DNA of 64,000 bases from contig JACPDG010000045.1 in assembly GCA_016184125.1 (NCBI GenBank), positions 1-64,000 of the forward strand, given 5' to 3'. Made by a program: the position numbers and the translations under genes. Source of the DNA: Candidatus Rokuibacteriota bacterium (GTDB taxonomy: Bacteria; Methylomirabilota; Methylomirabilia; Rokubacteriales; CSP1-6). Below the pieces are notes generated by a model that saw nothing but the letters and a program-made list of their open reading frames with translations, was not told the DNA's origin and made no database searches. Shown here piece by piece: positions 50,794 through 53,093 of the stretch. How positions within the stretch are numbered: the stretch's first letter is position 1; every line of letters starts with the position of its first letter.

Positions 50794-51510
50794 TCACAGG
50801 ATACCGCCCGCCGGCAGGAGCCGGACCTCCTCGAGGGCGGCTCCGGAGGGCAAGGCAGCCATCAGCACAACGGCGCGGGCGACATCGGCCGGGCGCAGCA
50901 TGCGCGCGCGATCCGGCCCGCCGGGGACCGTGTCCCAGAGCGGCGTGTCGACGGCGCCGGGGACGACAACCCCGACCCGGACCGCGGGCCGTACCTCCTC
51001 GGCGAGCACCCGGCTGAACGTCAGGACGCCGGCCTTCGTCGCGGCGTAGACCGCGGCCCCGGGGATCGGGCGCGTGGCCGCGATCGACGCGACGTTCACG
51101 ATCGTTCCCCGACCCTGGCGCAGCATAACGGGCAGGACGGCACGGCACGTCACCATCGTGGCGCGGAGGTTGACGGCCAGCATCCCGTCCCAGTCGTCCG
51201 CCTTCGATTCGGCAAACGTCCCGAACGACGCCGTTCCAGCGGCGTTGACGAGCACGTCGAGGCGCTCGAACCTGCCGACGGCCTCGTCCACGAGCGCGCC
51301 GACCGCCCGGTCCTGCGTCACGTCGGTCGGCACCGCGAACGCCTGCGCGCCGGCGCCTCGGATCTCCTCGGCCGCTGCCGCGAGCTCGGACCGCGTGCGA
51401 GCCGCGAGGACGACCGTGGCCCCTTCCGCCGCGAGAGCTCGGGCCACCGCGCGGCCGATGCCACGGCCCGCGCCGGTCACCAGGGCGACCTGACCGGCAA
51501 GCGCGCTCAT
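50794..51510 (-). CDS. short-chain dehydrogenase/reductase
   Basis: A 238-residue classical SDR: cofactor motif [26 protein letters not shown], catalytic Ser in VASIAA and YAATKAGV with Tyr and Lys. The start overlaps the folE stop (ATGA). In an operon with folE and two PTPS genes it is a candidate sepiapterin/pteridine reductase for tetrahydrobiopterin synthesis. Sequence alone does not prove that substrate. Confidence 0.85.
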
Positions 51511-53093
51511 AGCTGCATCCCCCTCCCGGACTTGATGAGCTCCATGAACTCCGCCCGCGTCTCGGGGCGATCCCGGAACGCGCCGAGCATCGCCGAGGTG
51601 ATCGCCTTCGAGTTCTGCTTCTCGACGCCGCGCATCAGCATGCACAGGTGCAGGCCCTCCATCACGACGGCGACGCCGCGCGGCTGGAGCGCGTCGTTGA
51701 GGGTGTTCGCGATCTGCGTCGTGAGCCGCTCCTGGACCTGGAGCCGGCGGCTGTACATCTCGACCAGTCGCGGGATCTTCGACAGGCCGACGATCTTGTG
51801 ACGTGGCATGTACGCGACGTGACACTTGCCCATGAACGGCAGGAGGTGGTGCTCGCAGTTATGCGCGAGGTGGCCCGCGAGGAGGAACGTCGGATACGGC
51901 TCGCAGGTGAAGCTGTACACCGTGTGCGGCTTCTTGGCCCGAGGAACGCGCCGGATCTCGGTCACCGACACGTGCGTGCTGTCGACGGGGACGTAGAACG
52001 TGCTCTCCTGGCGGAACCCGTGCTTGCCGTACCAGCCGGGCTGGTGCCAGCGATTGGAGACGTGGACCCGCGCGCACCCGTGGCCCGACTCCGCGACCGG
52101 CGTCTCCAGGTAACGCCCCAGGCGGTCGAGGAACTTCCGATTCCCGCTCACGATGACCCGCCCCTGCTCGATCGCGTACCCATCACCGTCCGCGCAGCCA
52201 TCCAGGAAGCCTTGCATCATCTCGCGAGAGGACGTGACGACCTCCGGGAACTCGAACGCGTGCGTCTTGCTCCTCGAACCCGTCTCCGAGACGCCGAGCC
52301 ACCGGCACAGCTTGTGGCCGACCGCACGGGACACCAGCCGCACCCGGAACGCAGGAACGACCCGTCCGGTAAAGCCCGACGGCACGGATACCTCTTCGAT
52401 CGCCGCGGCCGCGGACGGGAACGCCTCGGTCAGCATCGCTCGGTACTTCTCAACGAATGTCCGGCTCCTGACGGTCAGGTTGATCCGCCGGCCTTCCTGG
52501 ATGCTGCCGTCCGCGGCGACCGCGCCGATGACGTAGCCGAGCGCGTAGCCGGGCTCGGGCGCATGCGCGCGCCGGCACAGCGACTTCGGGTTGATCCACT
52601 CGACAGTCGCGCCGGGCTCGAGGCGGCCGGCCTCGCACCAACCCGAGTCCGTCATGAGTGGGTGGTCAGGTGTGACGCGGAGCCGGCCGCCGGTCGTGCG
52701 CACCTCCACGATCTCGCGCGTGGTCCTCGACGCCACGTGAGTGACCGAAGTTTCCTTGACCACGCCCTGGTCGAGCGTCCACAGGCGGTCGCCCGGCTGG
52801 ACGAGGCGCGCCGGCTTGGCGCCTCCCACCGTGTTCACGATCTGCTTCGAGGGCACGCAGAGGGAGAAGAAGTCGATGTCCTTCACGACCACCATCTCGT
52901 CGTAGTCCTCGACGAACAGCGCGTCGTTCAGGATGTCCTTCACGTCCTTGCCGTACCCGGACGTGAGATACGTCAGCGCCTTCTCGACGCGGTCGGGCGT
53001 GCGCGCGAGCCCCAGGCGCTCGGCGTCGTCGCCGACCAGCTCTCGCAGCAAGGCGGCGACGTGCTTCGCGATCTCTCCCTCGCGCGCACTCAT
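51507..53093 (-). CDS. folE: GTP cyclohydrolase I with in-frame intein (precursor)
   Basis: A 528-residue precursor. Residues 1-78 and 413-528 join to a normal 194-residue FolE, which converts GTP to 7,8-dihydroneopterin triphosphate. N-extein: [32 protein letters not shown]-extein: [40 protein letters not shown] and [19 protein letters not shown]. The 334-residue intein splits the SLCEHH active-site motif, whose Cys is a zinc ligand and serves as the +1 residue, so the enzyme is inactive until splicing. The ATG at 53093 fits FolE starts. Downstream it overlaps the SDR gene by 4 nt; upstream lie two PTPS genes. Confidence 0.93.
51858..52859 (-). mobile_element. LAGLIDADG-containing intein in folE
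   Basis: Encodes precursor residues 79-412. The intein begins with Cys79 ([13 protein letters not shown]), has splicing block [10 protein letters not shown] (TxxH), block [19 protein letters not shown] and ends AHN before the extein Cys413, so all splicing residues (Cys1, His-Asn, +1 Cys) are present. Two LAGLIDADG motifs, [16 protein letters not shown] and [14 protein letters not shown], keep their acidic residues, so the homing endonuclease may be active. It sits in the most conserved codons of folE, as homing elements usually do. Confidence 0.93.

Follow-up and report, generated by a model that had tools for sequence, protein, structure and literature searches.

A probable homing intein at a zinc-site cysteine of GTP cyclohydrolase I (FolE), recurrent across bacterial phyla

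Results

The interrupted folE gene

The window (the whole 64,000-nucleotide stretch of DNA analysed) encodes GTP cyclohydrolase I, which catalyses the first step of folate synthesis, in a frame of 528 codons that remains uninterrupted from position 53093 to position 51507. These are the limits given in the initial annotation, and they are correct; the coding strand is the minus strand. The features of the locus are as follows:

51507..53093 (-): folE, encoding an intein-interrupted GTP cyclohydrolase I precursor (528 aa; PF01227 gene)
52860..53093 (-): N-extein, FolE residues 1-78, C-terminal end ...DIDFFSL (78 aa)
51858..52859 (-): intein, from Cys1 to His333-Asn334 (334 aa; model pLDDT 93)
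52662..52673 (-): block B, TPDH, with intein residues T63 and H66 (T and H invariant in 68/68 inteins)
52503..52541 (-): first LAGLIDADG motif, intein residues 107-119 (Asp117 in 45/47 large inteins; PF14528)
52179..52217 (-): second LAGLIDADG motif, intein residues 215-227 (Asp226 in 46/47 large inteins)
51858..51926 (-): block F through the C-terminal His-Asn, intein residues 312-334 (H333 and N334 in 68/68, partly by construction of the search; Cys319 in 65/68)
51510..51857 (-): C-extein, FolE residues 79-194 (116 aa)
51855..51857 (-): +1 Cys of the C-extein, the C of CEHH (predicted splicing nucleophile; zinc-ligand role taken from solved relatives)
51642..51644 (-): Cys of the HLC motif, putative second zinc-ligand Cys (the position of site folE-b, empty in the window)

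When joined, the two exteins (78 + 116 aa) give a complete GTP cyclohydrolase I of 194 aa, and the coordinates thus bear out the product length first proposed. Profile searches matched the gene in two pieces flanking the intein (PF01227 of Pfam, 3.4e-67; NF006825 of NCBIfam, 2.5e-72). Both exteins align end to end with solved GTP cyclohydrolases, and the gap lies exactly at the Cys of CEHH, which confirms the insertion point originally assigned. The encoded FolE matches GTP cyclohydrolase I type IA over its full length and retains the CEHH and HLC zinc/active-site motifs.

This is the single PF01227 gene found in the window genome, and a search of the same assembly for folE2 found none (the assembly is 92.8% complete, so that a second copy could be missed). 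With neither another folE nor a folE2 found, folate synthesis in this genome should depend on splicing of the intein.

The stop codon of folE overlaps the start codon of the next gene, encoding a short-chain dehydrogenase (SDR), in the sequence ATGA. The segment 50794-54044 (-) comprises two PTPS/QueD-like genes, folE and the SDR gene, in an order that is conserved, with short overlaps, in locus L098; the order PTPS-PTPS-folE-SDR occurs in intein-carrying and intein-free genomes alike. With a GTP cyclohydrolase, PTPS and a sepiapterin-reductase-like SDR, the operon looks like a biopterin-type pathway. An Rfam search of the window identified only a tRNA. Other contigs of the window genome (L072, L073, L076, L078 and L079) are rich in inteins, the hosts being an AAA+ ATPase, DnaB (two), DNA polymerase III alpha, RecA and a uracil-DNA glycosylase-like protein, in which the intein seems to hold a VSR/DUF559-like domain.

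Anatomy and predicted fold of the intein

The 334-residue insert contains all the residues of a class 1 intein (Cys1, T63/H66 of TPDH, H333, N334 and the +1 Cys), as had been read from the sequence at the outset. The two LAGLIDADG motifs then reported were likewise found, with both acidic residues, D117 and D226, retained. The intein ends with HLAHN, followed by CEHHLLPF of the C-extein. There is one HN|CEHH junction in the window, against none in any of 100 shuffles; its chance origin is ruled out because independent relatives share it. Cys1, T63, H66, H333 and N334 are invariant in 68/68 distinct delimited inteins, although for H333 and N334 this is partly by construction, most relatives having been found via the HN|C pattern; L112, found otherwise, likewise ends with HN|C.

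Pfam analysis of the intein gave a match to Intein_splicing slightly under the curated cut-off (6.8e-8) and one to LAGLIDADG_3 over it (6.7e-6); PF14528 is present in 46/47 large folE inteins. The AlphaFold model, built from 47 relatives, has a mean pLDDT of 93. Its best Foldseek matches, with E values down to 2e-18, are the LAGLIDADG-bearing inteins TliVMA, PhoVMA and PI-SceI, and a profile search with the intein returned the same group. The Hint splicing fold is seen both in the model and in these matches, and the predicted LAGLIDADG fold matches the structures of I-Tsp061I, I-SceI and I-WcaI. Identification of the insert as a class 1 intein is thus supported by all the sequence and fold tests applied.

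Weak matches to PT-HINT and Vint raise the question of whether the insert is instead a bacterial intein-like (BIL) or other Hint autoprocessing domain. BIL domains lie in variable regions, in non-conserved parts of variable proteins (PMC2814812), whereas the folE site lies within the invariant CEHH motif. The +1 Cys, the conserved enzymatic motif, the exact intein-free relatives and the endonuclease also speak against this reading, which was rejected and to which we give next to no credence.

Block F is atypical, with Ser316 and Pro323 at the usual positions of Asp and His, a trait shared by the whole family. The Asp and His are usual in class 1 inteins, common but not obligatory, and their replacement may mean that the speed of splicing differs from the usual. 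Cys319 (window 51903-51905), within the block F motif SF[TK]C[ED]P, is conserved in every non-HNH folE intein.

The unusual block F could also be taken as a sign of a degenerate, non-splicing intein, in which case folE of the window genome would be a pseudogene. Consistent with decay, a relative (L110, genome G008) has a deletion and a frameshift just after CEHHLLP, reflecting either real damage or an assembly error. In the window, however, the frame is open throughout with every catalytic residue present, no other folE was found in the genome, and both extein and intein are under purifying selection (see below). The pseudogene reading, rejected on the open frame, the catalytic residues and the selection, is very improbable.

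Distribution of site folE-a

Relatives of the intein were sought by scanning for codons specifying His-Asn|Cys-Glu-His-His plus the next FolE residues, in one genome per species (84,980 species) and in a viral collection. The scan identified 61 contigs in the species genomes and 8 in the viral collection; these counts are lower bounds, as the penultimate His and the common CEHH context were required. At these loci, a few of which are truncated where the contig or locus ends, folE carries its insert precisely at the CEHH Cys. All 68 distinct delimited inteins start with Cys, end with His-Asn and are followed by the same Cys.

According to the titles of the sequence records, this distinct set spans about ten bacterial phyla as well as phage contigs. 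Actinomycetota contribute 31 of the inteins, mostly from Pseudonocardiaceae; the other carriers belong to Rokubacteria/Methylomirabilota, Chloroflexota, Nitrospirota, Gemmatimonadota, Planctomycetota, Elusimicrobiota, Omnitrophota, Poribacteria and Myxococcota. By these sequence comparisons the site, designated folE-a, is a recurrent insertion site across many phyla and is not peculiar to the window genome.

The source assembly is a draft of 121 contigs, and an assembly chimera or a misbinned contig might be suspected. Nevertheless, dozens of independently assembled genomes, isolates and closed genomes among them (e.g. Amycolatopsis sp. 2-2 and Ktedonosporobacter rubrisoli), share the intein and the junction, and the gene order agrees with that of a same-genus relative. 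The shared junction and the conserved gene order led us to reject an artefact of this kind, the likelihood of which is negligible.

Most folE-a inteins are approximately 322-340 aa long and contain LAGLIDADG motifs, and 18 are mini-inteins of 141-192 aa without an endonuclease. The mini-intein label requires at least 7 changes on the splicing-domain tree, four of them forced by well-supported branches; the endonuclease was therefore probably lost several times. Three viral folE inteins (contigs L066, L070 and L071) carry an HNH nuclease in place of LAGLIDADG and belong to a different splicing lineage, so that two intein lineages share one folE site.

Among INPHARED phage records there were 0 matches to the window intein and none covering 80% of the HNH-type precursor; the plasmid search covered only intein-free folE. 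Amycolatopsis thailandensis has a second, intein-free folE (G061 C395:55683-56198) beside its interrupted copy, and its FolE supply need not, for this reason, depend on splicing.

Mobility and selection

The family to which the window belongs was represented by 40 genomes: 15 contain the complete intein and one more contains a copy cut by a contig end (partial, 109 bits). The folE inteins score above 500 bits with the family profile and every other intein in those 40 genomes scores at most approximately 40 bits; this gap indicates that, within the family, the lineage is confined to folE. The proposed comparison with intein-free folE of relatives revealed empty sites, including that of a same-genus genome (G001), in which an intact folE with a clean empty site has the same neighbours (PTPS, PTPS, folE, SDR). 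Exteins with and without the intein are up to 97% identical (L044/L088; L120/L127).

Mapping of intein presence and absence on the folE extein tree required at least 13 changes, 7 of which are forced by well-supported branches. In some pairs the inteins are closer than their hosts (e.g. L037/L113, 70% vs 56%; L003 and viral L067, 64% vs 37%); in others the inteins have diverged far more than the hosts at synonymous sites (L011/L053, 0.56 for the intein vs 0.28 for the host). Either pattern is consistent with the intein having been gained and lost repeatedly.

Median dN/dS is 0.18 for the endonuclease region, 0.14-0.17 for the splicing parts and 0.22 for the extein, the values being rough since synonymous distances between the genomes are large. 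Because the endonuclease region is under purifying selection, the enzyme appears to have been kept functional. Taken together, these sequence data point to a class 1 intein that is mobile and actively maintained at folE-a, and whose homing we infer.

The zinc site and a second insertion site, folE-b

The zinc of solved GTP cyclohydrolase I is held with the help of two Cys residues (Cys78 and Cys150 in Listeria), and in the Listeria enzyme this pair forms a disulfide on zinc loss (PMC6718149). In the alignment with the solved enzymes, the first of their zinc Cys residues falls on the Cys at +1 of the window intein. The proposal that the CEHH Cys is at once zinc ligand and splicing nucleophile holds in that the residue is a zinc ligand in the aligned solved enzymes and occupies position +1 by sequence, from which its role as nucleophile is predicted. 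We take this Cys to be Cys110 of E. coli FolE.

Two Rubrobacter-type genomes contain another, unrelated intein directly before the HLC Cys (site folE-b). In one of them (L012/L132) folE-a and folE-b are both filled, and in the other (L130) folE-b alone. The folE-b intein ends with Gly-Asn and is without the penultimate His. Judging from the spacing of 71-72 residues between the two Cys, the HLC Cys is probably the second zinc ligand. The single match of a viral-sequence scan for folE-b inteins was rejected, being a FolE-like protein that lacks an intein and has HNCMRMRG in its natural sequence.

Conserved residues are where inteins insert, and the residue that follows an intein must be Cys, Ser or Thr (PMC2814812). 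The simplest reason for the position of folE-a and folE-b would therefore be that conserved Cys residues suit intein insertion.

Discussion

The observations are very probably explained by a class 1 intein with a LAGLIDADG homing endonuclease that resides in the sole folE found, is spliced out of the precursor and is mobile by homing; none of the results speaks against this reading. After translation, Cys1 would attack the peptide bond upstream of itself, and the chain would then move onto the zinc-ligand Cys of CEHH at position +1. Cyclisation of Asn334 would then release the intein and form an intact 194-aa FolE, the zinc site of which could assemble only after splicing. In DNA, intein-free folE is the expected target of the endonuclease, which would cut it at the conserved codon block, with repair copying the intein in. 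Such homing into empty folE genes would explain why the distribution of the intein is patchy among relatives and extends to other phyla and to phages.

Partial domestication of the intein into a switch is also conceivable: splicing would be slowed by zinc or when Cys1, Cys319 or the +1 Cys is oxidised, and FolE would be formed only when the zinc site can form. The +1 Cys is a zinc ligand and FolE is a main target of H2O2 in E. coli (PMC521172); the zinc Cys pair of FolE makes a disulfide once zinc is lost (PMC6718149), and zinc blocks another intein via its initiating Cys (PMC7360933). The conservation of Cys319 of block F in 65/68 folE-a inteins and the persistence of endonuclease-free mini-inteins in several actinobacterial genera point the same way. 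On the other hand, the intact endonuclease under purifying selection and the close relatives without the intein are as for a mobile parasite, and a conserved Cys is an ordinary intein target. We regard such domestication as unlikely. The broader proposal that folE inteins are zinc/redox-gated maturation switches, with both conserved Cys residues as sites and folate synthesis controlled at splicing, would be just as doubtful.

The mobile intein, our preferred explanation, makes a core metabolic enzyme a recurrent intein host and would add a new host gene to intein catalogues. Two sites are used in folE, each exactly at a conserved Cys (one a zinc ligand by alignment, the other putatively so), and the inteins display three endonuclease states (LAGLIDADG, HNH and none). 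As a compact model system they lend themselves to studies of homing, of the loss of endonucleases and of transfer between phyla. Whether zinc or redox state controls splicing can be tested directly in folE, whose enzyme has an easy growth assay.

A search of open-access papers found nothing linking inteins with FolE or GTP cyclohydrolase as host, only unrelated co-mentions. The initial suggestion that folE is an unreported host stands within that literature, in which no describing paper was found. The mechanism of inteins is known; the host gene folE, its recurrence across phyla and the two cysteine sites appear to be new.

The best structural and profile matches of the folE intein are the archaeal TliVMA and PhoVMA (PDB 7qsu, 7qss and 7qst) and yeast PI-SceI, which share the Hint fold interrupted by LAGLIDADG and the class 1 residues. 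These VMA inteins differ in their host, an ATPase subunit, and are only 12-18% identical to the folE intein, which is smaller (334 aa). The closest single-sequence PDB relative of its N-terminal splicing region is the RecA intein of Mycobacterium tuberculosis (PI-MtuI), likewise a bacterial class 1 intein with LAGLIDADG, but inserted in a different host gene and having the RecA-type block F Asp, in contrast to Ser316 and Cys319 of the folE intein. In the mycobacterial DnaB intein, zinc binds the initiating Cys and stops splicing (PMC7360933); both host and intein differ from those described here, and in folE it is a Cys of the host protein that binds zinc.
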